DNA of 64,000 bases, taken from NCBI GenBank assembly GCA_963678705.1, contig CAVMBN010000165.1:62001-126000 (forward strand), in the 5' to 3' direction. Of this stretch, positions 3,074 through 27,263 are shown one piece after another. This stretch comes from Panorpa germanica. Taxonomy: Eukaryota > Arthropoda > Insecta > Mecoptera > Panorpidae. A program made the position numbers and the translations under genes. Under the pieces are notes generated by a model. That model worked only from the letters and a program-made list of their open reading frames with translations. It was not told the DNA's origin and did not search any database. Each line of letters begins with the position of its first letter. Position 1 is the stretch's first letter.

Positions 3074-3303
3074 TTTTAAGTCATGGTTATCAAATATAAC
3101 CTTTAGTGTCAGCAAGTGAGATGACATCCTGCAGAAATAATAAAATCCACTATACATTGTTAATGAACGCAGTCTTTAAAGTGTTTCTAGTTTAGATAAA
3201 AAGAAAATCGAAATATTATTTTGTGTAATTGTTTATTTTTGAAATTCTTGTTCATATACAGCAAAAGTATAATAATACCTAATAATTAACATTCTTTTGT
3301 CAG
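3074..3303. other. AT-rich DNA upstream of the truncated PolB relic
   Basis: This segment shows no match to the region upstream of the intact polymerase gene, so the homology of the relic starts abruptly at about 3304. Nothing else is recognised. Confidence 0.4.
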
Positions 3304-6300
3304 TTAAAGATAAAAAGGCTATAGTAAATGTAGTAAATAATGATCAAGCTTGCTTTATGTGGGCTATAACTTCAGCATTGTATCCAGCATCAAAAAGTAT
3401 GGATAGAGTTACATCATATCCACATTATTCAAAAGTACTTAATTCAAATGGTATAGAATTACCGATGAAATTAAAAGATATTAGAACATTTGAGAAGAAT
3501 AATGATATAAGTGTGAATGTTTATGGACTTGAAAATAATTTCATTGTGGGACCGTTGCATTATACATCTAAAAAGAAGAAACAACATGTTAATTTATTGT
3601 ATATTGAAGATTTGAGTAATGGACATTATTGTTGGATTAAAAATATATCAAGATTAATAAGAAGTCAATTTACTAAGCATACTAGTAAACAATTTTTGTG
3701 TGATGGATGCTTTTCATTTTTTAACACAGAAGATCAGTTAAATAGACATTTAGAATATGATTGCAATAAGATATATACAATCCTTCCTTCTAAGTATAAC
3801 GCTAAAGATAAATTGGGTAATATGATATCTCAAAACATTTTAAAATTCGATAATCATAAGAATCAATTACGCGTTCCATTTGTGATATATGGAGATTTTG
3901 AAACATTATTAAAACCCATTAGTACTTGTTATCCTGAAACTAATACATCATTTTCAAATAATATTCAAATTCATGAACCATATTTAATGTTCCTTTAATG
4001 ATTCCTTAAGTAAGTTTGTTACGTACAGAGGTATTAATTGCGATAAAGTATTTATTGAAACAATAACTGAATACGCTAAACAAATTTATAAAGTCTTAAA
4101 TAAAGTGAAGCCTTTAAATAAATTATCTGATTGGCAAAAACAGGAATATGATGAAGCTTCTATTTGCCATATTTGTGAAGGTATCCTCAATGGTGATAAA
4201 GTGTTAGATCATTGTCATTTAACTGGTAATTACCGAGGAGCTGCTCATAATCATTGCAATTTAAAATTTACAATTCCAAAGTTTATACCTGTAATATTCC
4301 ATAACTTAAGTAATTGTAACCATATAATTGTAAAAGAATTAGGTAATGATAGTGGAAAAATTGAAGTTATTCCAGAAAATAAGGAAAAGTATATATCTTT
4401 TACGAAACATATTTTGGTGGAATCAAAAGCCGATAAAAATGATAAAGTTCATAACTGCTATATTAAACTTAGATTTATTGATTCTTTACGATTTATGCAT
4501 TCTAGTTTAGAAACACTTGCAAAAAATTTATTATCAGAACAATTTTTCGAATTTAAAAAATTCTATCCGAATGAAAATCATTTCAATTTATTAAAACGTA
4601 AAGGTGTATTTCCTTATGAATATGTAAATAGTAGGGATATGCTTAATGATTCTGACTTGCTATCTCAAAATAATTTTTATAGCTCACTTAATGGCTGTAA
4701 TATATCTGACGGGGATTACAATCATGCCAAAATGGTTTGGTATGCATTTGAAATGAAAACATTAGGGGAATATTCAGACTTATATTTAAAGATCGATGTT
4801 CTGTTGTTAACAGATATTTTTGAAAATTTTCGAGATGTGTGCTATAAAACATATAATATACATCATTTTCAAATAATATTCAAATTCATGAACCATATTC
4901 TTTTGCTCATTATATTAAATGTTCCTTTAATGATTCCTTAAGTAAGTTTGTTACGTACAGAGGTATTAATTGCGTTAAAGTATTTATTGAAACAATAACT
5001 GATACGTACAGAGGTATTAATTGCGTTAAAGTATTTATTGAAACAATAACTGAAGATGCTAAACAAATTTATAAAGTCTTAAATAAAGTGAAGCCTTTAA
5101 ATAAATTATCTGATTGGCAGAAACAGGAATATGATGAAGCTTCTATTTGCCATATTTGTGAAGGTATCCTCAATGGTCATAAAGTGTTAGATCATTGTCA
5201 TTTAACTGGTAATTACCGAGGAGCTGCTCATAATCATTGCAATTTAAAATTTACAATTCCAAAGTTTATACCTGTCATATTCCATAACTTAAGTAATTAC
5301 GATAGCCATATAATTGTAAAAGAATTAGGTAATGATAGTGAAAAAATTGAAGTTATTCCAGAAAATAAGGAAAAGGATATATATCTTATACGAAACATAT
5401 TTTGGTAGAATCAAAAGTCGATAAAAATGATAAAGTTCATAACTGCTATATTAAACTTAGATTTATTGATTCTTTACGATTTATGCATTCTAGTTTAGAA
5501 ACACTTGCAAAAAATTTATTATCAGAACAATTTTTCGAATTAAAAAATTCTATCCGAATGAAAATCATTTCAATTTATTAAAACGTAAAGGTGTATTTCC
5601 TTATGAATATGTAAATAGTAGGGATATGCTTAATGAATCTGACTTGCCATCTCAAAATAATTTTTATAGCTCACTTAATGGCTGTAATATATCTGACGAT
5701 GATTACAATCATGCCAAAATGGTTTGGTATGCATTTGAAATGAAAACATTGGGGGAATATTCAGACTTATATTTAAAGATCGATGTTCTGTTGTTAACAG
5801 ATATTTTGCTATAAAACATATAATTTAGATCCCTGTCAATATTATACAGCACCAGGACTTTTTTGGGATGCTATGTTAAATTATACAAGTATTGAATTAG
5901 AACTTTTAACAGATATTGATATGTTACATTTTATTAAAAAAGGTATAAAAGGTGGAATATCACAATGCTCTCACAGACATGGAATTGCAAATAATAAATA
6001 TATGTCCAATTATGATTCAAATAAAGATTCTCAATATTTAATGTATTGGGATGCAAATAACTAAAGCTATTGAAGATAACTCAGATGTTGGTTATATATT
6101 AGAAGTCGATTTAAGATATCCTAATTATTTGCACGATGAACACAATGATCTACCTTTCTGTGCCGAAAATATTAAACCACCTTGCATTAAAACAAATGAC
6201 GTTAAATTAATACCAAATCTAAATAACAAGTATAATTATGTGCTTCACAATAGATCGTTAAAGCAATGTCTTAAAAATAATCTGAAAATAGATAAAATTC

Positions 6301-7193
6301 ATAGAAATTTGGAATTTAAACAGTCTGATTGGTTAAAAAGTTATATTGATCTAAATAAATTAAAAAGAAAGAACTCTGCAAATACATTTGAGAAAAAACT
6401 TTTTTAAATTATTGAATAATTCAGTTTATGGTAAAACAATGGAAAATGTAGATAAACGTGTTGATGTAAAGTTAATAACTCATTAAGATAATATAGGAAA
6501 AACAATGGGTGCTAATACACTTATAAGTAAACCAAACTATCATAGTTGTTCTATATTTCATGAAAACTTAGTTGCTATTCAAATGCAAAAACTTAAAGTT
6601 TTTTATAATAAACCATTGTATTTAGGATTAAGTGTACTTGATATATCAAAAAACTTTAATATACGATTTTCATTATGATTTCATCAAAAAAAATCTATAA
6701 AGGTAATGCTAAATTGTTGTATACAGATACAGATTCATTAATATATCAAATTAAAACAGATGATATATATGACGATATTAAGTGTAATCTAGATAAATTT
6801 GATACATCTAATTATCCATTTAATAATGAATTTTCATTACCTTTAATGAACAAAGCTAAATTAGGCTTAATAAAAGATGAATGCGCGAGTAGTATAATTT
6901 GGGAGTTTGTTAGGTTAAGGTCAAAAATGTATGCAATTGATATTGAGGGTTCATGCACAGCTAAAGCAAAAGGAATTAAGAAAAATATTGTAAACAAATT
7001 CAATATTAAAGATTATGTAAATTGTTTATCTCAGGATAACATATTATTGATCACAATGAATACCTTTAAATCTATTAAGCATACAATTTATACTCAAATG
7101 ATAAGTAAAGTAGGTCTTAGTGGAAATGATAATAAAAGTTATGTATTAACTGATGGTATAAGTACTTTAGCACATGGACATTATAAAATTTAG
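3304..7193 (+). pseudogene. Broken, 5'-truncated family-B DNA polymerase (Polinton-type)
   Basis: This is collinear with the intact 1278-residue polymerase at 21765-25601 from about residue 272 to the last residue, so the N-terminal zinc fingers are lost. Exo I (GDFETLL, near 3895) and the endonuclease-VII-like DHCH motif (near 4208, and again near 5190) survive. Breaks include a 17-base deletion near 3987, a 915-bp internal tandem duplication (junction near 4861), a nested 51-bp duplication (4952-5002 repeated at 5003-5053), a deletion of about 20 bases near 5807, and a deletion of roughly 85 bases at about 6062 that removes most of polymerase motif A. There are also several frameshifts and an in-frame stop near 6484. 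Motif C (YTDTDS) remains near 6721. The 3' flank also matches the intact element up to about 7415. It is an older family member and cannot encode an active enzyme. Confidence 0.9.
3946..5053 (+). repeat. Internal tandem duplication within the PolB relic
   Basis: The sequence from about 3946 to 4860 starts again at 4861 with the same CATCATTTTCAAATAATATTC. The second copy retains 17 bases lost from the first and contains an extra nested 51-bp duplication (4952-5002, 5003-5053). These three steps account for the 983-base offset seen downstream between the two copies. Confidence 0.8.
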
Positions 7194-7415
7194 TACTAAT
7201 TTTAAGTTAAGTTTAAGTTTTGTATAAATTTATATCTGTTTTAGTTAAGATAATTAAAATGTATATTTATATAACAATTGAAAAATAGCATATTTATAAA
7301 TAAATAATAATATATAAACACAAACCATTGAGTTTTATTATTATAAGATTTAATGTTTTAATACATCCACATAAAATAAGATACACATATTTTATTAGTA
7401 ATGTTTTGTTATATA
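7194..7415 (+). other. 3' flank of the PolB relic with poly(A) signal
   Basis: This noncoding segment is nearly identical to the sequence after the PolB stop codon in both arms of the palindrome (20426-20650 and its mirror). It includes an AATAAA at 7299-7304, 106 bases after the stop, at the same offset as in the intact copies. Homology stops at about 7415. Confidence 0.75.
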
Positions 7416-7438
7416 TATTCTTAATATATATAAATTAC

Positions 7439-14093: not shown

Positions 14094-14198
14094 GCCGCCC
14101 ACTATCAAGTAAGTCGAATAACATTAACTATAAATAATATTAAAACACAAGAATTAGTTTATATAAATGCGTGTTTTAAATAATAATGAGAGTGTATT
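14094..14198 (+). repeat. Satellite monomer 5, type A, left fragment
   Basis: The first 105 bp of a monomer that is cut by the palindromic element. Its last six bases TGTATT (14193-14198) are one copy of the target duplication. The rest of the monomer resumes at 27264. Confidence 0.95.
14193..14198. repeat. Target-site duplication, left copy
   Basis: TGTATT, repeated at 27258-27263 directly after the element. Uninterrupted monomers read GAGAGTGTATTAATTG at this place, with a single copy. Confidence 0.92.
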
Positions 14199-14270
14199 AG
14201 TAGAGGGTTTGTGAGAGTTCTGGAGCCTCCCATGGGAGGGAATTTAAGTATAGGTAAGCGACGTACGTCC
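14199..14270. repeat. Left terminus with subterminal palindromes
   Basis: Twenty-seven bases from the end is the perfect palindrome CCTCCCATGGGAGG (14226-14239), and at 14260-14269 is GACGTACGTC. Both recur at the mirrored place in the right arm. They are candidate binding sites for replication or integration proteins; this is inference from position. Confidence 0.6.
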
Positions 14271-14468
14271 CATGTTATTAGTATAGGAGAATAAATACAA
14301 GGTGTCTAAAAAGGGTTGCCAGTATATGAAATATATGAAAATATTTAAATAATTAAAGTTTTATGCTTGGAATAGGGTGTTCCAGAATAATATTTATAGG
14401 TATATAATTATATGTAATGTAATAATAATAGAATTATAACACACGTACGTTTTATGTTTTTATTTTTT

Positions 14469-15606
14469 AGAAATTAAATCCGCCATTTTGACTAAAATTT
14501 TTTTACTTTCGTCTTCTAATCGTGTTCTCCTGTTAGGGTATTGGTACTGATGGGGGATAAATTTTTTATCAAAAATGCAATATCTTCAACCGTTTACGAG
14601 ATATTTAAAGTTTTATTTTTTAGAAATTAAATCCGCCATTTTGACTATAATTTTTTTACTTTCGTCTTCTAAACGTGTTCTCCTGTTAGGGTATTGGTAC
14701 TGATGGGGGATAAATTTTTTATCAAAAATGCAATATCTTCAACCGTTTACGAGATATTTAAAGTTTTATTTTTTAGAAATTAAATCCGCCATTTTGACTA
14801 AAATTTTTTTACTTTCGTCTTCTAATCGTGTTCTCCTGTTAGGGTATTGGTACTGATGGGGGATAAATTTTTTATCAAAAATGCAATATCTTCAACCGTT
14901 TACGAGATATTTAAAGTTTTATTTTTTAGAAATTAGATCCGCCATTTTGACTAAAATTTTTTTACTCTCGTCTTCTAAACGTGTTCTCCTGTTGGGGTAT
15001 TGGTACTGATGGGGGATAAATTTTTTATCAAAAATGCAATATCTTCAACCGTTTACGAGATATTTAAAGTTTTATTTTTTAGAAATTAAATCCGCCATTT
15101 TGACTAAAATTTTTTTACTTTCGTCTTCTAAACGTGTTCTCCTGTTAGGGTATTGGTACTGATGGGGGATAAATTTTTTATCAAAAATGCAATATCTTCA
15201 ACCGTTTACGAGATATTTAAAGTTTTATTTTTTAGAAATTAAATCCGCCATTTTGACTAAAATTTTTTTACTTTTGTCTTCTAATCGTGTTCTCCTGTTA
15301 GGGTGTTGGTACTGATGGGGGATAAATTTTTTATCAAAAATGCAATATCTTCAACCGTTTACGAGATATTTAAAGTTTAATTTTTTAGAAATTAAATCCG
15401 CCATTTTGACTAAATTTTTTTTACTTTCGTCTTCTAAACGTGTTCTCCTGTTAGGGTATTGGTACTGATGGGGGATAAATTTTTATCAAAAATGCTATAT
15501 CTTTAACCGTTTACGAGATATTTAAATTTTTTTATTTTAAAATTGAATCCGCCATTTTGGCTAAATTTTTTAACTTATGTCTTGTAAATGTGTTCTTTAA
15601 ATATCA
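14469..15606. repeat. 153-bp subterminal tandem repeats, left arm
   Basis: Eight units, spaced exactly 153 bp for the clear ones (phrase AGAAATTAAATCCGCCATTT at 14469, 14622, 14775, 14928, 15081, 15234, 15387, and a degenerate one near 15540). Each unit also holds CAACCGTTTACGAGATATTT. The innermost unit is the most divergent. Private variants in single units (for example AATTAGATCC at 14928) reappear in the matching unit of the right arm. Confidence 0.92.
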
Positions 15607-15627
15607 TATGGTATTTACAGAAATATA

Positions 15628-15695
15628 CGATGATAGCCGAAGATAGCCGATGATAGCCGATGATAGCCGAAGATAGCCGATGATATCCGAAGATG
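15628..15695. repeat. 10-bp tandem repeat upstream of PolB, left arm
   Basis: About six and a half units of TGATAGCCGA or AGATAGCCGA lie between the 153-bp repeats and the PolB start. They are mirrored at 25761-25829. Confidence 0.85.
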
Positions 15696-15853
15696 CACAA
15701 AGATTATTGCTTAAATAGATATATTTAATATTTTTTTATTTAATATTGTTGAATGCAGTTGAATGAGAACATCTGTTGAAAAAAGAACTGCAAGTATATA
15801 ATATTTTTTTATAATAAGAAGAAAATAATAAGTGTTAAAAAAAGATTTATGAG

Positions 15854-18800
15854 ATGTATACCTGCAAAGAGTGTAATACATTATTTTCAAGATTAGATAA
15901 TCTGAAACGTCATGAAAATGTATCTTGTAATTCAAATAAATTTTTGTGTGAATATTGTGGTTTAATATATACAAATATAAGAAATTATACTAATCATTTA
16001 TTGAAAATACATCAAATTGAATTTGAGTGTAATAATAAACGCAAATTGGATGCTGAACCTGAAATATCAAGTAAACGATCCAAAACGGAGTTAATTGAGA
16101 GTTCATTAACTAAAAAGAAAATTACGGATTGGTGTAATGCATGCAAAAGTAATGTGTTAAATAAAAATCTATATAACCATTATAGAAGTAATGAGCATAA
16201 AAGACTAGCAAGTGTAGATGTAGAATGCGATAATGATATACAAAAAATTACTTCAGCATTTAAAAATCGTATTGCGGCATATAGATTACATACCAAAGAA
16301 ATGTTTAACAGTATTAAAGAATATATGATATTTTTTCAAAATAAAGTATTCGTGTTATTGGGAAAATATTTGGAAGAATTTAATACAATTAAAGTAAATA
16401 TTGAATTATTTGGTTTATATGTAAAATATAATAAAGATGAGGAGTTATTAATTGATATAAAATCTTTTAACACTAAAAATAAAGTGATTAATAAATCCAT
16501 TGATCTAAAGGAAATATATAATAATTTTAGAAAAGTTATTGAAATAAAAAGTGAAGAATTTCAACAACGTGATTCAGGATGGAGTCTTAAAGAGATAATG
16601 CATTTAGAAATAAATATTAACAAATATAATCCTTTGCGGGGATCATCTTATATTGATTTACCAAAGAAAGTTAAAGATAAAAAGGCTATAGTAAATGTAG
16701 TAAATAATGATCAAGCTTGCTTTATGTGGGCTATAACTTCAGCATTGTATCCAGCATCAAAAAGTATGACTAGAGTTACATCATATCCACATTATTCAAA
16801 AGTACTTAATTTAAATGGTATAGATTTACCGATGAAATTAAAAGATATTAGAACATTTGAGTATAATAATGATATAAGTGTGAATGTATATGGACTTGAA
16901 AATAATTCCATTGTAGGACCGTTGCACTATTCATCTAAAAAGAAGAAACAACATGTTAATTTATTGTATATTGAAGATTTGAGTAATGGACATTATTGTT
17001 GGATTAAAAATATGTCAAGATTAATAAGAAGTCAATTTACTAAGCATAATGGTAAACAATTTTTGTGTGATGGGTGCTTAGCATTTTTTAATACAGAAGA
17101 TCAGTTAAATAGACATTTAGAATCTGATTGTAATAAGATATATACAATCCTTCCTTCTACTTATAAGGCTAAAGATAAATTAGGTAATATGAGACCTCAA
17201 AACATTTTAAAATTTGATAATTATAAGAATAAATTACGCGTTCCATTTGTGATATATGGAGATTTTGAAACATTATTAAAACCCATTAGTACTTGTTTTC
17301 CTGATACTAATACATCATTTTCAAAAAATATTCAAATTCATGAACCATATTCTTTTGCTTATTATATTAAATGTTCCTTTAATGATTCCTTAAGTAAGTT
17401 TGTTACGTACAGAGGTATTAATTGCGTTAAAGTATTTATTGAAACAATAACTGAAGACGCTAAACAAATTTATAAAATCTTAAATAAAGTAAAGCCTTTA
17501 AATAAATTATCTGATTGGCAAAAACAGGAATATGATGAAGCTTCTATTTGCCATATTTGTGAAGGTATCCTCAAAGGTGATAAAGTGTTAGATCATTGTC
17601 ATTTAACTGGTAATTACCGAGGAGCTGCTCATAATCATTGCAATTTAAAATTTACAATTCCAAAGTTTATACCTGTCATATTCCATAACTTAAGTAATTA
17701 CGATAGCCATATAATTGTAAAAGAATTAGGTAATGATAGTGAAAAAATTGAAGTTATTCCAGAAAATAAGGAAAAGTATATATCTTTTACGAAACATATT
17801 TTGGTGGAATCAAAAGTCGATAAAAATGATAAAGTTCATAACTGCTATATTAAACTTAGATTTATTGATTCTTTACGATTTATGCATTCTAGTTTAGAAA
17901 CACTTGCAAAAAATTTGTTATCAGAACAATTTTTCGAATTAAAAAAATTCTATCCGAATGAAAATCATTTCAATTTATTAAAACGTAAAGGTGTATTTCC
18001 TTATGAATATGTAAATAGTAGGGATATGCTTAATGAATCTGAGTTGCCATCTCAAAATAATTTTTATAGCTCACTTAATGGCTGTAATATATCTGACGAT
18101 GATTACAATCATGCCAAAATGGTTTGGTATGCATTTGAAATGAAAACATTGGGGGAATATTCAGACTTATATTTAAAGATCGATGTTCTGTTGTTAACAG
18201 ATATTTTTGAAAATTTTCGAGATGTGTGCTATAAAACATATAATTTAGATCCCTGTCAATATTATACAGCACCAGGACTTTCTTGGGATGCTATGTTAAA
18301 GTATACAAGTATTGAATTAGAACTTTTAACAGATATTGATATGTTACATTTTATTAAAAAAGGTATAAGAGGTGGAATATCACAATGCTCTCACAGACAT
18401 GGAATTGCAAATAATAAATATATGTCCAATTATGATTCAAATAAAGATTCTCAATATTTAATGTATTGGGATGCAAATAACTTATATGGTTGGGCTATGA
18501 GTCAATATTTACCACATGAGGGATTTAAATGGTTAGATACATATAAATTACAAACATTTAATGTAGAAGCTATTGAAGATAACTCAGACGTTGGTTATAT
18601 ATTAGAAGTCGATTTAAGATATCCTAATTATTTGCACGATGAACACAATGATCTACCTTTCTGTGCCGAAAATATTAAACCACGTAGCATTAAAACAAAT
18701 GACGTTAAATTAATACCAAATCTAAATAACAAGTATAAATATGTGCTTCACTATAGATCGTTAAAGCAATGTCTTAAAAATAATCTGAAAATAGATAAAA

Positions 18801-20425
18801 TTCATAGAATTTTGGAATTTAAACAGTCTGATTGGTTAAAAAGTTATATTGATCTAAATACATTAAAAAGAAAGAACTCTGCAAATGCATTTGAGAAAGA
18901 CTTTTTTAAATTAATGAATAATTCAGTTTATGGTAAAACAATGGAAAATGTAGATAAACGTGTCGATGTAAAGTTAATAACTCATTGGGATAATATAGGA
19001 AAAAAAATGGGTGCTAATACACTTATAAGTAAACCAAACTATCATAGTTGTTCTATATTTCATGAAAACTTAGTTGCTATTCAAATGCAAAAACTTAAGG
19101 CAGTATTCTACTGTAGAATTTTGAAAAAATCGAAATTTTTTTTTTTTCATATTTTCAAAGTTTAGATATTCAAAAATATGTCATTAAAAGGATTTCTCAA
19201 AATTCCTATTATTTCATGAGTTATAGCCATATAATAATATATAGTTATATTTATTATTATATGAGTTATAAAACTTTGAAAACGTTTTTCTGGGAACTAC
19301 TTTTTTCGAGCTGGCGGTAAGGATATCTCAAGTTCTAATGAACTGATTCACTTCAAATTTGAAGAGGATGTTCCCTATACGTCGCTACATCGCGTGAACC
19401 ACGCCCAAAACTATAACTTCTCATTTAGTATTTTTTAAAAATTCGGAATTGTTAAAAAAACATGAAAAAAAATAATTTTTTTTTCAAACTGCCGCCATTT
19501 TGACAAAAAAATTTCTTTAGCTTATCCAAGGTTCATGCGATAGCGGCATCTATAATAATTAAGAATCCGTCTGTTTTTTATGTTTCAGAACACCAGGAGG
19601 GTTTTGAATCATGCACGCCAGGACACCTTCTTTTTTTTTGACCCCCCACTTTGACAGCTCATAACTTTGTCAATTTTAATTTTTTTTTTTTAATAATTTT
19701 TTTATGTAATAATAAAACATCAATAAACAAATAATAAAAAAATTGATTGTAAAAATATTTTTTGTTTCCTTCCTACAGCGCTTCTAAAACCGAGCGAAAT
19801 TCATGCCTCTACAGTAGAATACTGCCTTAAGGTTTTTTATAATAAACCATTGTATTTAGGATTAAGTGTACTGGATATATCAAAAACTTTAATATACGAT
19901 TTTCATTATGATTTCATCAAAAAAATCTATAAAGGTAATGCTAAATTGTTGTATACAGATACAGATTCATTAATATATCAAATTAAAACAGATGATATAT
20001 ATGACGATATTAAGTGTAATCTAGATAAATTTGATACATCTAATTATCCATTTAATAATGAATTTTCATTACCTTTAATGAACAAAGCTAAATTAGGCTT
20101 AATGAAAGATGAATGCGCGGGTAGTATAATTTGGGAGTTTGTTGGGTTAAGGTCAAAAATGTATGCAATTGATATTGAGGGTTCATGCACAGCTAAAGCA
20201 AAAGGAATTAAGAAAAATATTGTAAACAAACTCAATATTAAAGATTATGTAAATTGTTTATCTCAGGATAACATATTATTGATCACAATGAATACCTTTA
20301 AATCGATTAAGCATACAATTTATACTCAAATGATAAGTAAAGTAGGTCTTAGTGGAAATGATAATAAAAGATATGTATTAACTGATGGTATAAGTACTTT
20401 AGCACATGGACATTATAAAATTTAG
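15854..20425 (+). pseudogene. Left-arm family-B DNA polymerase, interrupted by a TTAA element
   Basis: The frame opens at ATG 15854 with the same N-terminus as the intact right-arm gene and runs to the insertion at 19099, after which it reads into the inserted DNA and stops at 19163-19165. The rest of the gene resumes at 19831 and ends with the same stop at 20425. The 5' part carries the zinc fingers, Exo I (D470, E472), the endonuclease-VII-like motif (C566, C569, D580-H583, C596), Exo III (D777), motif A (D873) and motif B (K1019 to K1028). The severed 3' part carries motif C (YTDTDS near 19954). I counted about nine amino-acid differences from the right-arm copy, so the two diverged recently. 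Unless the insert is removed, the enzyme would lack motif C and be inactive. Confidence 0.9.
19095..19830. mobile_element. 728-bp TTAA-flanked miniature DNA transposon
   Basis: The element proper is 19099-19826, with perfect 18-bp terminal inverted repeats (GGCAGTATTCTACTGTAG and its complement at 19809-19826). It is flanked by TTAA at 19095-19098 and 19827-19830. The unoccupied site is seen in the right arm at 22360-22363. TTAA duplication is the mark of the piggyBac and Kolobok superfamilies; the termini do not let me choose. It has no coding capacity, so it was moved by an enzyme made elsewhere. It sits in only one arm, so it arrived after the palindrome formed. Confidence 0.9.
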
Positions 20426-20530
20426 TACTAATTTTAAGTTAAGTTTAAGTTTTGTATAAATTTATATCTGTTTTAGTTAAGATAATTAAAATGTATATTT
20501 ATATAACAATTGAAAAATAGCATATTTGTA

Positions 20531-20536
20531 AATAAA
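20531..20536 (+). terminator. Poly(A) signal after left PolB
   Basis: AATAAA, 106 bases after the stop codon. The same offset is kept in the right arm and in the old relic at 7299. Confidence 0.5.
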
Positions 20537-20644
20537 TAATAATATATAAACACAAACCATTGAGTTTTATTATTATAAGATTTAATGTTTTAATACATCC
20601 ATATAAAATAAGATACACATATTTTATTAGTAATGTTTTGTTAT

Positions 20645-20930
20645 ATATAATTCTTATATGATTAACACTGGTCATAAGAGCTCTAATATATATGCATAGA
20701 CATATTAATGTATGAGTAGGCGTACATAAACTGGATGACAATTGTATACGTTATATGCAGGAGCAGTACCCAAATCAATTCATTAGTGAATGCAGGCATG
20801 TCAAAAAAAAAACCAATATTTCATTTCTTAATATCATACCAACGTAATAAGAATGTAACTTGGAATATTGGAATAGTGGTGTAGGTTAGGTTACACACCC
20901 GCGAAACGAGATTTAGTTTAGAGCCCAAAC
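20645..20930. other. Inner arm segment between PolB and the GC block, left
   Basis: This noncoding stretch is mirrored at about 21261-21546. An 80-codon frame reads outward here (20741 to 20499) and an identical one in the right arm (21449 to 21691), but it overlaps the conserved 3' flank of PolB and is rich in Ile, Leu and Tyr as expected from AT-rich DNA. It is not called as a gene. Confidence 0.5.
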
Positions 20931-21002
20931 CCAGGCCCAGACCCCTACCCGGGCCACCCCACCCGGGTCCGCACCAGGACCCCCAGCCCCAATCTGTACC
21001 CC
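20931..21002. repeat. GC-rich block, left of centre
   Basis: About 70 bp dominated by C on the top strand, including CCCGGGCCACCCCACCCGGG. It is sharply different from the AT-rich arm and mirrored at 21189-21260 with small differences (one base lost from a C run). Confidence 0.8.
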
Positions 21003-21013
21003 GTAAATAGTTC

Positions 21014-21085
21014 GAACGTAACTTGAACGTAATGGGAACGTAACTTGAACGTAATGGGAACGTAACTTGAACGTAACTTGAACGT
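21014..21085. repeat. Seven 11-bp iterons, left of centre
   Basis: GAACGTAACTT or GAACGTAATGG starts at 21014, 21025, 21036, 21047, 21058, 21069 and 21080, a strict 11-bp period. They run up to the spacer and are mirrored at 21106-21177. An 11-bp step is about one helical turn, which suits an ordered protein array. Confidence 0.85.
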
Positions 21086-21105
21086 AGAGTATTTATTTTA
21101 GAATT
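21086..21105. other. Central spacer of the giant palindrome
   Basis: This 20-bp AT-rich sequence (AGAGTATTTATTTTAGAATT) is the only part of the element not mirrored. It marks the symmetry point and probably the join at which one arm was copied or fused to the other. Confidence 0.85.
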
Positions 21106-21177
21106 ACGTTCAAGTTACGTTCAAGTTACGTTCCCATTACGTTCAAGTTACGTTCCCATTACGTTCAAGTTACGTTC
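21106..21177. repeat. Seven 11-bp iterons, right of centre
   Basis: Mirror copy of the left iterons, reading ACGTTCAAGTT and CCATTACGTTC on the top strand. The two sets together could pair into a long stem with the 20-bp spacer as loop. Confidence 0.85.
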
Positions 21178-21188
21178 GAACTATTTAC

Positions 21189-21260
21189 GGGGTACAGATT
21201 GGGGCTGGGGGCCTGGTGCGGACCCGGGTGGGGTGGCCCGGGTAGGGGTCTGGGCCTGGG
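21189..21260. repeat. GC-rich block, right of centre
   Basis: Mirror of the left GC block, G-rich on the top strand. It differs from it by a one-base deletion, and by a few bases just outside the block (CTCGCTCCGCGGG against the complement of CCCGCGAAACGAG). Confidence 0.8.
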
Positions 21261-21653
21261 TTTGGGCTCTAAACTAAATCTCGCTCCGCGGGTGTGTAAC
21301 ATAACCTACACCACTATTCCAATATTCCAAGTTACATTCCCATTACGTTGGTATGATATTAAGAAATGAAATATTGGTTTTTTTTTTGACATGCCTGCAT
21401 TCACTAATGAATTGATTTGGGTACTGCTCCTGCATATAACGTATACAATTGTCATCCAGTTTATGTACGCCTACTCATACATTAATATGTCTATGCATAT
21501 ATATTAGAGCTCTTATGACCAGTGTTAATCATATAAGAATTATATATAACAAAACATTACTAATAAAATATGTGTATCTTATTTTATATGGATGTATTAA
21601 AACATTAAATCTTATAATAATAAAACTCAATGGTTTGTGTTTATATATTATTA

Positions 21654-21659
21654 TTTATT
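21654..21659 (-). terminator. Poly(A) signal after right PolB
   Basis: TTTATT on the top strand is AATAAA on the bottom strand, 106 bases beyond the PolB stop at 21765. Confidence 0.5.
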
Positions 21660-21764
21660 TACAAATATGCTATTTTTCAATTGTTATATAAATATACATT
21701 TTAATTATCTTAACTAAAACAGATATAAATTTATACAAAACTTAAACTTAACTTAAAATTAGTA

Positions 21765-24700
21765 CTAAATTTTATAATGTCCATGTGCTAAAGTACTTAT
21801 ACCATCAGTTAATACATATCTTTTATTATCATTTCCACTAAGACCTACTTTACTTATCATTTGAGTATAAATTGTATGCTTAATCGATTTAAAGGTATTC
21901 ATTGTGATCAATAATATGTTATCCTGAGATAAACAATTTACATAATCTTTAATATTGAATTTGTTTACAATATTTTTCTTAATTCCTTTTGCTTTAGCTG
22001 TGCATGAACCCTCAATATCAATTGCATACATTTTTGACCTTAACCCAACAAACTCCCAAATTATACTACCCGCGCATTCATCTTTCATTAAGCCTAATTT
22101 AGCTTTGTTCATTAAAGGTAATGAAAATTCATTATTAAATGGATAATTAGATGTATCAAATTTATCTAGATTACACTTAATATCGTCATATATATCATCT
22201 GTTTTAATTTGATATATTAATGAATCTGTATCTGTATACAACAATTTAGCATTACCTTTATAGATTTTTTTGATGAAATCATAATGAAAATCGTATATTA
22301 AAGTTTTTGATATATCCAGTACACTTAATCCTAAATACAATGGTTTATTATAAAAAACCTTAAGTTTTTGCATTTGAATAGCAACTAAGTTTTCATGAAA
22401 TATAGAACAACTATGATAGTTTGGTTTACTTATAAGTGTATTAGCACCCATTTTTTTTCCTATATTATCCCAATGAGTTATTAACTTTACATCGACACGT
22501 TTATCTTCATTTTCCATTGTTTTACCATAAACTGAATTATTCATTAATTTAAAAAAGTCTTTCTCAAATGCATTTGCAGAGTTCTTTCTTTTTAATGTAT
22601 TTAGATCAATATAACTTTTTAACCAATCAGACTGTTTAAATTCCAAAATTCTATGAATTTTATCTATTTTCAGATTATTTTTAAGACATTGCTTTAACGA
22701 TCTATAGTGAAGCACATAATTATACTTGTTATTTAGATTTGGTATTAATTTAACGTCATTTGTTTTAATGCTAGGTGGTTTAATATTTTCGGCACAGAAA
22801 GGTAGATCATTGTGTTCATCGTGCAAATAATTAGGATATCTTAAATCGACTTCTAATATATAACCAACGTCTGAGTTATCTTCAATAGCTTCTACATTAA
22901 ATGTTTGTAATTTATATGTATCTAACCATTTAAATCCCTCATGTGGTAAATATTGACTCATAGCCCAACCATATAAGTTATTTGCATCCCAATACATTAA
23001 ATATTGAGAATCTTTATTTGAATCATAATTGGACATATATTTATTATTTGCAATTCCATGTCTGTGAGAGCATTGTGATATTCCTCTTATACCTTTTTTA
23101 ATAAAATGTAACATATCAATATCTGTTAAAAGTTCTAATTCAATACTTGTATACTTTAACATAGCATCCCAAGAAAGTCCTGGTGCTGTATAATATTGAC
23201 AGGGATCTAAATTATATGTTTTATAGCACACATCTCGAAAATTTTCAAAAATATCTGTTAACAACAGAACATCGATCTTTAAATATAAGTCTGAATATTC
23301 CCCCAATGTTTTCATTTCAAATGCATACCAAACCATTTTGGCATGATTGTAATCATCGTCAGATATATTACAGCCATTAAGTGAGCTATAAAAATTATTT
23401 TGAGATGGAAACTCAGATTCATTAAGCATATCCCTACTATTTACATATTCATAAGGAAATACACCTTTACGTTTTAATAAATTGAAATGATTTTCATTCG
23501 GATAGAATTTTTTTAATTCGAAAAATTGTTCTGATAACAAATTTTTTGCAAGTGTTTCTAAACTAGAATGCATAAATCGTAAAGAATCAATAAATCTAAG
23601 TTTAATATAGCAGTTATGAACTTTATCATTTTTATCGACTTTTGATTCCACCAAAATATGTTTCGTAAAAGATATATACTTTTCCTTATTTTCTGGAATA
23701 ACTTCAATTTTTTCACTATCATTACCTAATTCTTTTACAATTATATGGCTATCGTAATTACTTAAGTTATGGAATATGACAGGTATAAACTTTGGAATTG
23801 TAAATTTTAAATTGCAATGATTATGAGCAGCTCCTCGGTAATTACCAGTTAAATGACAATGATCTAACACTTTATCACCTTTGAGGATACCTTCACAAAT
23901 ATGGCAAATAGAAGCTTCATCATATTCCTGTTTTTGCCAATCAGATAATTTATTTAAAGGCTTCACTTTATTTAAGATTTTATAAATTTGTTTAGCGTCT
24001 TCAGTTATTGTTTCAATAAATACTTTAACGCAATTAATACCTCTGTACGTAACAAACTTACTTAAGGAATCATTAAAGGAACATTTAATATAATAAGCAA
24101 AAGAATATGGTTCATGAATTTGAATATTATTTGAAAATGATGTATTAGTATCAGGAAAACAAGTACTAATGGGTTTTAATAATGTTTCAAAATCTCCATA
24201 TATCACAAATGAAACGCGTAATTTATTCTTATAATTATCAAATTTTAAAATGTTTTGAGGTCTCATATTACCTAATTTATCTTTAGCCTTATAAGTAGAA
24301 GGAAGGATTGTATATATCTTATTACAATCAGATTCTAAATGTCTATTTAACTGATCTTCTGTATTAAAAAATGCTAAGCACCCATCACACAAAAATTGTT
24401 TACCATTATGCTTAGTAAATTGACTTCTTATTAATCTTGACATATTTTTAATCCAACAATAATGTCCATTACTCAAATCTTCAATATACAATAAATTAAC
24501 ATGTTGTTTCTTCTTTTTAGATGAATAGTGCAACGGTCCTACAATGGAATTATTTTCAAGTCCATATACATTCACACTTATATCATTATTATACTCAAAT
24601 GTTCTAATATCTTTTAATTTCATCGGTAAATCTATACCATTTAAATTAAGTACTTTTGAATAATGTGGATATGATGTAACTCTAGTCATACTTTTTGATG

Positions 24701-25601
24701 CTGGATACAATGCTGAAGTTATAGCCCACATAAAGCAAGCTTGATCATTATTTACTACATTTACTATAGCCTTTTTATCTTTAACTTTCTTTGGTAAATC
24801 AATATAAGATGATCCCCGCAAAGGATTATATTTGTTAATATTTATTTCTAAATGCATTATCTCTTTAAGACTCCATCCTGAATCACGTTGTTGAAATTCT
24901 TCACTTTTTATTTCAATAACTTTTCTAAAATTATTATATATTTCCTTTAGATCAATGGATTTATTAATCACTTTATTTTTAGTGTTAAAAGATTTTATAT
25001 CAATTAATAACTCCTCATCTTTATTATATTTTACATATAAACCAAATAATTCAATATTTACTTTAATTGTATTAAATTCTTCCAAATATTTTCCCAATAA
25101 CACGAATACTTTATTTTGAAAAAATATCATATATTCTTTAATACTGTTAAACATTTCTTTGGTATGTAATCTATATGCCGCAATACGATTTTTAAATGCT
25201 GAAGTAATTTTTTGTATATCATTATCGCATTCTACATCTACACTTGCTAGTCTTTTATGCTCATTACTTCTATAATGGTTATATAGATTTTTATTTAACA
25301 CATTACTTTTGCATGCATTACACCAATCCGTAATTTTCTTTTTAGTTAATGAACTCTCAATTAACTCCGTTTTGGATCGTTTACTTGATATTTCAGGTTC
25401 AGCATCCAATTTGCGTTTATTATTACACTCAAATTCAATTTGATGTATTTTCAATAAATGATTAGTATTATTTCTTATATTTGTATATATTAAACCACAA
25501 TATTCACACAAAAATTTATTTGAATTACAAGATACATTTTCATGACGTTTCAGATTATCTAATCTTGAAAATAATGTATTACACTCTTTGCAGGTATACA
25601 T
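21765..25601 (-). CDS. Intact Polinton-type protein-primed family-B DNA polymerase with N-terminal zinc fingers
   Basis: The product has 1278 residues and no break, expected to copy the element's DNA in the nucleus. In order: C2HC finger (C4, C7, H20, C25), C2H2 finger (C32, C35, H48, H53), third finger (C94, C97, H109, H115); a conserved block at about 272-400 with NDQACFMWAI and GHYCWIK; a fourth C2HC-like finger at about 403-425; Exo I (GDFE, D470 and E472); an inserted treble-clef motif like phage endonuclease VII (C566, C569, DHCH 580-583, C596); Exo II (NYDSH, D617); Exo III (YLKID, D777); motif A (WDANNLYGWAM, D872); motif B (K-x3-NS-x-YGK, near 1018-1027); motif C (YTDTDS, D1124 and D1126); KxY near 1190-1192. 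All catalytic acids are present. The start is the only ATG before the first finger and matches the left arm. Inserted zinc fingers and endonuclease motif are typical of transposon PolB proteins of animals. Function is predicted; expression is not shown. Confidence 0.92.
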   Translation of the reverse strand: MYTCKECNTLFSRLDNLKRHENVSCNSNKFLCEYCGLIYTNIRNNTNHLLKIHQIEFECNNKRKLDAEPEISSKRSKTELIESSLTKKKITDWCNACKSNVLNKNLYNHYRSNEHKRLASVDVECDNDIQKITSAFKNRIAAYRLHTKEMFNSIKEYMIFFQNKVFVLLGKYLEEFNTIKVNIELFGLYVKYNKDEELLIDIKSFNTKNKVINKSIDLKEIYNNFRKVIEIKSEEFQQRDSGWSLKEIMHLEININKYNPLRGSSYIDLPKKVKDKKAIVNVVNNDQACFMWAITSALYPASKSMTRVTSYPHYSKVLNLNGIDLPMKLKDIRTFEYNNDISVNVYGLENNSIVGPLHYSSKKKKQHVNLLYIEDLSNGHYCWIKNMSRLIRSQFTKHNGKQFLCDGCLAFFNTEDQLNRHLESDCNKIYTILPSTYKAKDKLGNMRPQNILKFDNYKNKLRVSFVIYGDFETLLKPISTCFPDTNTSFSNNIQIHEPYSFAYYIKCSFNDSLSKFVTYRGINCVKVFIETITEDAKQIYKILNKVKPLNKLSDWQKQEYDEASICHICEGILKGDKVLDHCHLTGNYRGAAHNHCNLKFTIPKFIPVIFHNLSNYDSHIIVKELGNDSEKIEVIPENKEKYISFTKHILVESKVDKNDKVHNCYIKLRFIDSLRFMHSSLETLAKNLLSEQFFELKKFYPNENHFNLLKRKGVFPYEYVNSRDMLNESEFPSQNNFYSSLNGCNISDDDYNHAKMVWYAFEMKTLGEYSDLYLKIDVLLLTDIFENFRDVCYKTYNLDPCQYYTAPGLSWDAMLKYTSIELELLTDIDMLHFIKKGIRGISQCSHRHGIANNKYMSNYDSNKDSQYLMYWDANNLYGWAMSQYLPHEGFKWLDTYKLQTFNVEAIEDNSDVGYILEVDLRYPNYLHDEHNDLPFCAENIKPPSIKTNDVKLIPNLNNKYNYVLHYRSLKQCLKNNLKIDKIHRILEFKQSDWLKSYIDLNTLKRKNSANAFEKDFFKLMNNSVYGKTMENEDKRVDVKLITHWDNIGKKMGANTLISKPNYHSCSIFHENLVAIQMQKLKVFYNKPLYLGLSVLDISKTLIYDFHYDFIKKIYKGNAKLLYTDTDSLIYQIKTDDIYDDIKCNLDKFDTSNYPFNNEFSLPLMNKAKLGLMKDECAGSIIWEFVGLRSKMYAIDIEGSCTAKAKGIKKNIVNKFNIKDYVNCLSQDNILLITMNTFKSIKHTIYTQMISKVGLSGNDNKRYVLTDGISTLAHGHYKI
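22360..22363. other. Empty TTAA site matching the left-arm insertion
   Basis: This is the uninterrupted counterpart of the site occupied at 19095-19830. It carries a single TTAA within an intact PolB frame. Confidence 0.85.
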
Positions 25602-25760
25602 CTCATAAATCTTTTTTTAACACTTATTATTTTCTTCTTATTATAAAAAAATATTATATACTTGCAGTTCTTTTTTCAACAGATGTTCTCATTCAACTGC
25701 ATTCAACAATATTAAATAAAAAAAATATTAAATATATCTATTTAAGCAATAATCTTTGTG

Positions 25761-25829
25761 CATCTTCGGATATCATCGGCTATCTTCGGCTATCATCGGC
25801 TATCATCGGCTATCTTCGGCTATCATCGT
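25761..25829. repeat. 10-bp tandem repeat upstream of PolB, right arm
   Basis: Mirror of the 15628-15695 repeat, with the same order of TCATCGGCTA and TCTTCGGCTA variants. Confidence 0.85.
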
Positions 25830-25850
25830 ATATTTCTGTAAATACCATAT

Positions 25851-26987
25851 GATATTTAAAGAACACATTTACAAGACATAAGTAAAAAAATTTAGCCAAA
25901 ATGGCGGATTCAATTTTAAAATAAAAAAATTTAAATATCTCGTAAACGGTTAAAGATATAGCATTTTTGATAAAAATTTATCCCCCATCAGTACCAATAC
26001 CCTAACAGGAGAACACGTTTAGAAGACGAAAGTAAAAAAAATTTAGTCAAAATGGCGGATTTAATTTCTAAAAAATTAAACTTTAAATATCTCGTAAACG
26101 GTTGAAGATATTGCATTTTTGATAAAAAATTTATCCCCCATCAGTACCAACACCCTAACAGGAGAACACGATTAGAAGACAAAATTAAAAAAATTTTAGT
26201 CAAAATGGCGGATTTAATTTCTAAAAAATAAAACTTTAAATATCTCGTAAACGGTTGAAGATATTGCATTTTTGATAAAAAATTTATCCCCCATCAGTAC
26301 CAATACCCTAACAGGAGAACACGTTTAGAAGACGAAAGTAAAAAAATTTTAGTCAAAATGGCGGATTTAATTTCTAAAAAATAAAACTTTAAATATCTCG
26401 TAAACGGTTGAAGATATTGCATTTTTAATAAAAAATTTATCCCCCATCAGTACCAATACCCTAACAGGAGAACACGTTTAAAAGACGAAAGTAAAAAAAT
26501 TTTAGTCAAAATGGCGGATCTAATTTCTAAAAAATAAAACTTTAAATATCTCGTAAACGGTTGAAGATATTGCATTTTTGATAAAAAATTTATCCCCCAT
26601 CAGTACCAATACCCTAACAGGAGAACACGTTTAGAAGACGAAAGTAAAAAAATTTTAGTCAAAATGGCGGATTTAATTTCTAAAAAATAAAACTTTAAAT
26701 ATCTCATAAACGGTTGAAGATATTGCATTTTTGATAAAAAATTTATCCCCCATCAGTACCAATACCCTAACAGGAGAACACGTTTAGAAGACGAAAGTAA
26801 AAAAATTTTAGTCAAAATGGCGGATTTAATTTCTAAAAAATAAAACTTTAAATATCTCGTAAACGGTTGAAGATATTGCATTTTTGATAAAAAATTTATC
26901 CCCCATCAGTACCAATACCCTAACAGGAGAACACGATTAGAAGACGAAAGTAAAAAAATTTTAGTCAAAATGGCGGATTTAATTTCT
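25851..26987. repeat. 153-bp subterminal tandem repeats, right arm
   Basis: Eight units in mirrored order. Unit-specific variants match the left arm: AAATTAAAC near 26070, CCAACACCC near 26148 and the GATCTAATTTC variant near 26518. The array was therefore copied as a block when the palindrome formed. Confidence 0.92.
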
Positions 26988-27185
26988 AAAAAATAAAAAC
27001 ATAAAACGTACGTGTGTAATAATTCTATTATTATTACATTACATATAATTATATACCTATAAATATTATTCTGGAACACCCTATTCCAAGCATAAAACTT
27101 TAATTATTTCAATATTTTCATATATTTCATATACTGGCAACCCTTTTTAGACACCTTGTATTTATTCTCCTATACTAATAACATG

Positions 27186-27257
27186 GGACGTACGTCGCTT
27201 ACCTATACTTAAATTCCCTCCCATGGGAGGCTCCAGAACTCTCACAAACCCTCTACT
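27186..27257. repeat. Right terminus with subterminal palindromes
   Basis: Mirror of the left end: GACGTACGTC at 27187-27196, CCTCCCATGGGAGG at 27217-27230, and the terminal CTCTCACAAACCCTCTACT ending at 27257. Confidence 0.6.
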
Positions 27258-27263
27258 TGTATT
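27258..27263. repeat. Target-site duplication, right copy
   Basis: TGTATT, directly after the element; the satellite monomer continues AATTGTTATAAGTG as in all other copies. Confidence 0.92.

Follow-up and report, generated by a model that had tools for sequence, protein, structure and literature searches.

Published passages on vertebrate Mavericks (Polintons) give their ends as (AG)3 or (AGT)2 and their 6-bp target-site duplications (TSDs) as perfect (PMC8097293), and those on insect Mavericks list ATP, INT with a chromodomain, CAP with PLA2, PRO and POLB (PMC5803895). In the excerpts of two further papers a circular or stem-loop Maverick replication form is hypothesised (PMC2646287) and a single-stranded replication intermediate is likewise only suggested (PMC4061559), and no palindromic Maverick is described among the titles and abstract openings listed from Creative Commons-licensed PMC literature. 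Here we analysed a stretch of 64,000 nucleotides from Panorpa germanica (assembly GCA_963678705.1, contig CAVMBN010000165.1, positions 62,001 to 126,000 of the forward strand), hereafter the window, in which self-alignment revealed that the element at 14199-27257 is a palindrome from end to end. Like Polintons/Mavericks, it has a same-family DNA polymerase (a family B enzyme, PolB, that we assign to the Maverick type) with an endonuclease VII-like segment, a 6-bp TSD and terminal inverted repeats that start 5'-AG; unlike them, its inverted repeat is the entire element, it holds two PolB copies, and no integrase, ATPase or capsid gene was found in it. The palindrome belongs to a multi-copy family and is mobile, integrating as one unit. 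From sequence comparison, this is likely a Maverick-derived palindromic family rather than a complete Maverick, and we favour, with moderate confidence, a cycle in which a polymerase of its own, predicted to be protein-primed, replicates it through a hairpin and a Maverick integrase supplied in trans inserts it.

Mirroring begins at the outermost base, as the preliminary description of this DNA had claimed: positions 14199-19100 align with 27257-22358 at 99.5% identity over 4903 columns, and 19826-22364 is self-palindromic at 99.0%. The left arm (14199-21086, forward strand) and the right arm (21105-27257, reverse strand) are separated by the spacer GAGTATTTATTTTAGAAT (21087-21104), which is 18 bp long rather than the 20 bp first reported, and the centre sits 0.66 kb beyond the PolB stop. 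The ends read AGTAGAGGG...CCCTCTACT, with AGTAG termini, and the outer arms hold 153-bp tandem repeats (7.5 copies at 14458-15596 on the left; 25860-26998 on the right). TGTATT stands at both ends (14193-14198 and 27258-27263), as had been noticed earlier, and is a genuine TSD because 26 other units of the surrounding 1586-bp satellite are uninterrupted and display the empty site (TGTATT in 25, a one-base variant in the other).

Both arms hold PolB, as the preliminary description proposed, with an overlooked 732-bp insertion interrupting the left copy (a 728-bp element with inverted ends at 19099-19826, flanked by TTAA doubled at 19095-19098 and 19827-19830). The insertion cuts the left PolB (15854-20425, forward strand) after ~1080 codons, leaving the right arm with the one unbroken gene (21765-25601, reverse strand; 1278 amino acids (aa)), and it is a later event, missing from the arms of other copies matched in the genome search. 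In the right PolB one member of a conserved glycine pair is missing, and there are further differences from the left arm and from a degraded copy at 3302-7423; thus, both window copies resemble ageing insertions. Differences between the arms number 11 per 1655 bp in the outer part, 9 per 3840 in PolB and 5 per 661 in the inner part, giving no clean result for an age gradient from older outer to younger inner sequence. The sole other open reading frame (ORF) of at least 100 aa in the element lies at 25481-25852, antisense to the start of PolB.

Three queries were run against the 464-Mb assembly (249 contigs): the left arm (22 of 1099 candidates scored), the outer 259 bp (40 of 62) and the PolB protein (36 of 3347), so that all numbers of copies are minima. 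They recovered at least 14 convergent PolB pairs (window, C5a, C13a, C59, C7a, C5b, C6a, C10, C82, C209, C7c, C6d, C6b and C233). Both members match PolB 1-1278 in one piece in 11 of the 14 pairs, the exceptions being the window, with its split left copy, C6b, whose right copy starts from residue 37, and C233 (1-1194), and in 10 of the 14 neither PolB contains a stop. These pairs rule out the one-off derivative that had been proposed: the element is one of a multi-copy family whose palindrome transposes, with a common loop and signs of arm re-copying within lineages, and the further palindromic copies with different 6-bp flanks that had been anticipated are present.

Both halves were read for nine copies (the window and eight others, the right arm of C5b being truncated by a contig end) and the mirrored centre for seven more (C13b, C6b, C7b, C82, C209, C144 and C7c), and C15 holds fragments of both arms in opposite orientation. 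Best arm alignments within the eight other copies reach 98.7-100% identity; the arms of C5b are identical (5620/5620 bp) and those of C6a differ by 1 mismatch in 7683. Paired ends are spaced 13.1-19.2 kb apart, with the exception of C6c (6.0 kb). Perfect and mutually different 6-bp TSDs flank 13 of the 16 same-end elements with both ends read (window TGTATT, C13a CACGTC, C59 CTAGGG, C5a GATATT, C10 TGCAAC, C6a TTTGTA, C7a CATATA, C233 AAGGTC, C15 GACATG, C7c TATAAA, C6c TTCGTC, C6b GATAGG and C7b CATAAC), and the ends read carry the window element's termini, the single deviant being the right end of C233 (CTATT).

The exact 18-bp loop, on either strand, occurs in 15 of the 16 palindromic centres read (it is altered in C6b), and therefore the palindrome itself is the moving unit. 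The centres of C82, C209, C144 and C7c hold two loops in opposite orientation. Such double-loop centres (L058, L073, L075 and L076) look like the product of a second fold-back, and three of the four are without a perfect TSD.

Private changes were counted across 22 arm segments aligned over 4410 columns, the window left arm being used only up to the insertion. Changes common to both arms occupy 22 sites across five of the nine copies (both arms/left only/right only: C10 6/0/0, C233 5/10/10, window 4/4/4, C13a 4/4/1 and C59 3/10/10), with the remaining copies at 0/6/5 (C5a), 0/0/0 (C7a and C5b) and 0/1/0 (C6a). In the tree the two arms are sisters in C233, the window and C13a (support 0.96-0.97) and in C59 (0.68), and the arms of C10 are identical, suggesting that in five of nine copies both arms were re-copied from one arm. 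Two arm lineages running in parallel since the origin of the family are disfavoured because the private changes and the tree pair the arms. A single master palindrome without arm copying is likewise disfavoured by the private changes common to both arms.

One half-element, C158 (L047), consists of a single arm with an AGTAG end and a complete loop, after which it stops. It is flanked on both sides by TAGCATAAAT, with about ten extra bases ahead of the loop, its PolB has two stops, and it looks like an inserted hairpin that was opened at the loop.

Under the cycle we favour, the PolB end of a Maverick would have folded back at a short inverted repeat lying downstream of PolB, giving the first palindrome. 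A single strand displaced from the palindrome would then snap back into a one-armed hairpin with a single origin end, and copying of this hairpin would give a new symmetrical duplex with its arms equalised again, whose AGTAG ends a Maverick-type integrase from other elements, acting in trans, would link to the target DNA. Hairpin copying would account for the equal arms, the common loop and the half-element, and a Maverick integrase in trans for the TSD and the AG ends. Precedents for such a cycle are the inverted dimers that yeast makes from hairpin-capped molecules (PMC4689423), the panhandle intermediates proposed for invertron plasmids (PMC1864894) and the circular or stem-loop form hypothesised for Mavericks (PMC2646287). 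Hairpin derivatives of yeast linear plasmids are a further one. A two-arm change would thus predate the last copying and a single-arm change postdate it, and integrated copies could be read as a record of Maverick replication. The Maverick descent, gene loss, fold-back origin and integration in trans put forward in the preliminary description are all consistent with the data; mobility is demonstrated, and the hairpin, fold-back and trans steps are what we infer.

Several observations weigh against this cycle. C5a has no shared and 11 single-arm changes, with arms that are not sisters in the tree, and C7a, C5b and C6a vary too little to be informative on arm re-copying. Silent-to-changing ratios of shared and single-arm changes do not differ significantly (14:7 versus 45:13, p = 0.38), C158 is one case and could be a one-arm deletion, and among the 16 elements read at both ends C209, C144 and C82 have no perfect TSD. 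The family was seen only as integrated DNA, never as an extrachromosomal form or a hairpin, and no terminal protein came to light; the ends of the candidate helper element described below (L050) were not located. A conventional full-length Maverick with the same terminal repeats, a relative that had been thought worth seeking, was not found in the genome search, which left 10 unpaired ends: two belong to part-read palindromes (C13b and C5b), three were followed inward, one into repeats and two into PolB arms, and five were not followed.

A possible but rather unlikely alternative is that the palindrome formed once and moves as a double-stranded unit, the two-arm changes arising by gene conversion after insertion. 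Long near-identical palindromes do undergo conversion, and the shared changes in five of the nine copies, with a silent-to-changing ratio not significantly different from that of single-arm changes, are what conversion could leave. Shared changes do not, however, grow with age (six versus no single-arm changes in C10, none versus 11 in C5a and three versus 20 in C59), and conversion has erased neither the 732-bp insertion of the window nor the scattered single-arm substitutions.

It is improbable that every palindrome arose separately as a defective product of a conventional Maverick, by fold-back while one end replicates. Mirrored derivatives with PolB, with an integrase and with a DUF8207 relic are all present in this genome, and independent fold-back may still explain the first origin of each mirrored type; as an account of the copies it is disfavoured by the exact loop in 15 of 16 PolB-family centres, by their forming one close family and by the failure of the search to reveal a conventional Maverick with the same outer repeats. 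We consider it quite improbable that a chromosomal error within an already inserted element, such as origin-dependent inverted-repeat amplification, or else the break-induced extension of its long terminal repeats, produced the mirroring, for which the published excerpt on yeast turning hairpin-capped molecules into inverted dimers (PMC4689423) offers a precedent. Such an error must then have struck many insertions with distinct TSDs, each time giving the same loop and no mirrored host flank. Assembly from fold-back reads, chimeras of which arise in long-read and amplified libraries, is very unlikely given the un-mirrored flanks, perfect TSDs, arm-specific substitutions and one-arm insertion.

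Motifs that we take to be those of a family B polymerase and exonuclease were recognised by eye in the PolB protein. In Pfam it matches a C2H2 zinc finger and endonuclease VII below threshold; PF03175 is unmatched by the window PolB and matched by two of the 21 members of its alignment, NCBIfam gave no match, and a PDB sequence search returned zinc-finger matches and a weak Sso10a match (E 0.57) with no polymerase among them. The search for relatives found 502, and among the 120 listed those named to species are insect proteins of 44-56% identity. IMG/VR yielded no match to the single protein and two contigs to the PolB alignment: L001 carries a PolB relative with an rve integrase, an A32-type ATPase and a capsid match that falls below threshold, and L002 a PolB relative with an ATPase-like gene similar to that of L001. 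In L016 an rve integrase frame, convergent with the PolB frame, lies 20 bp beyond its downstream end, and in L006 and L012 one lies close to PolB (below the Pfam cut-off in L012). Across most of its length the window PolB has homology to the PolB found beside an rve integrase in L001 (38% identity) and L016 (44%), and it matches that of L050 at 51% over residues 708-1274 and 39% over 318-715. We therefore class the gene as Maverick-type, since its relatives adjoin integrase and ATPase genes; in L016 and L001 the integrase lies on the side of PolB where the palindrome centre lies.

Seventeen contigs from bacterial or archaeal bins (L003-L019) also carry Maverick-type PolB relatives, which are probably eukaryotic contaminants.

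Between lineages PolB is constrained, with pN/pS of 0.28-0.35 in eight comparisons that are not independent (p 0.018 to 7.6e-5), and between the arms of one copy, after insertion, it looks neutral (0.5-1.8 in four copies, none significantly off neutral). The gene therefore mattered while the element was moving and decays after insertion.

As the preliminary description had stated, the other Maverick genes appear to be missing, in so far as tblastn at E 0.01 found no match in the window to the integrases of L001 and L050, to the ATPase proteins of L001 and L002 and the capsid-candidate proteins, or to the ATPase, PLA2 and DUF8207 proteins of L050; protease lay outside the search. L050 is part of a Maverick-like element and the candidate helper, with a PLA2-domain gene, an A32-like ATPase, a 443-aa DUF8207 protein, a chromodomain integrase and PolB in two frames; neither a protease nor a major capsid gene was identified in it. 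The genome holds at least 134 integrase and at least 96 DUF8207 matches (134 of 1313 and 95 of 442 candidates scored, again lower bounds). For 62 of the 134 listed integrase matches, DUF8207 lies on the same strand no more than 2.5 kb away, which marks many Maverick-like loci in this genome, and 14 of the 134 form seven back-to-back pairs 3.0-3.3 kb apart, none with DUF8207.

Two of these integrase pairs were read (L048 and L049) and are palindromes whose arms carry a broken window-family PolB (main segments 93-98% identical), with an integrase gene inside. Their ends begin AGTAGTTGAGG and AGTAGGGTAG, respectively; L049 has the TSD CCCATG, and the flanks of L048, GAAGGG and AACGGG, do not match perfectly. 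L048 (1663-2794) and L050 (3744-4875) share a 1132-bp integrase cassette at 99.6% identity, while their PolB DNA is only ~65% identical, which suggests a recent exchange of the integrase gene between the palindrome and the Maverick-like element. The short element C6c (L078, 6.0 kb) combines PolB-family ends and 153-bp repeats with a broken DUF8207 gene in each arm, and its inner 2500 bp are 99.5% mirrored. Together with the PolB palindromes, these elements indicate that mirroring befell at least three Maverick parts in this genome.

We tentatively raise the further, doubtful possibility that a Maverick has split into mirrored one-gene segments (polymerase, integrase and DUF8207 palindromes), each with an origin and integration end on both sides, its arms re-equalised in every cycle through a hairpin and its enzymes supplied in trans, forming a multipartite chromosomal replicon. 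If so, the palindromic form would be a way to live with one replication end.

Outside the element, the 1586-bp tandem satellite spans 7756-64000 of the window; three of its repeat intervals are 1944 bp long, with a 358-bp stretch duplicated, and its short repeated ORFs resemble, by eye, pieces of reverse transcriptase. The satellite starts ~330 bp beyond the degraded relative of one arm (3302-7423, forward strand), a lone PolB copy that contains an internal tandem duplication and an ~84-bp deletion, the latter common to the integrase-bearing palindromes L048 and L049.

Parallels are also found among protein-primed linear elements. Derivatives of the yeast killer plasmid pGKL1, which are cytoplasmic deletion plasmids, reportedly have a one-armed hairpin and an inverted dimer as replication forms, resembling the present system in pairing a one-origin hairpin with a palindromic dimer; unlike them, the palindromes described here sit in the genome as many integrated copies, between 6-bp TSDs. 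Mitochondrial invertrons of the pAL2-1 type are also protein-primed and linear, and in the published excerpt their integrated copies show inverted duplications, possibly through panhandle intermediates (PMC1864894); that text differs from our case in describing non-homologous and often truncated integration, with inverted repeats of host mitochondrial DNA. For Foldback/Galileo, the excerpted account gives the copies with the longest repeats no transposase frame (PMC3573991), whereas every arm here holds a whole polymerase gene. The 7-bp TSD of Galileo/Foldback (P superfamily) is at odds with the 6 bp of this family, and the window element offers only the one antisense-overlapping ORF besides PolB, no search for a P transposase having been made. 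Long perfect palindromes are usually unstable, yet palindromes of 13-19 kb thrive here as mobile units with two gene copies. The family also suggests a replicon that carries only a polymerase gene and lives alongside helper elements, as a natural counterpart of defective mirrored genomes.

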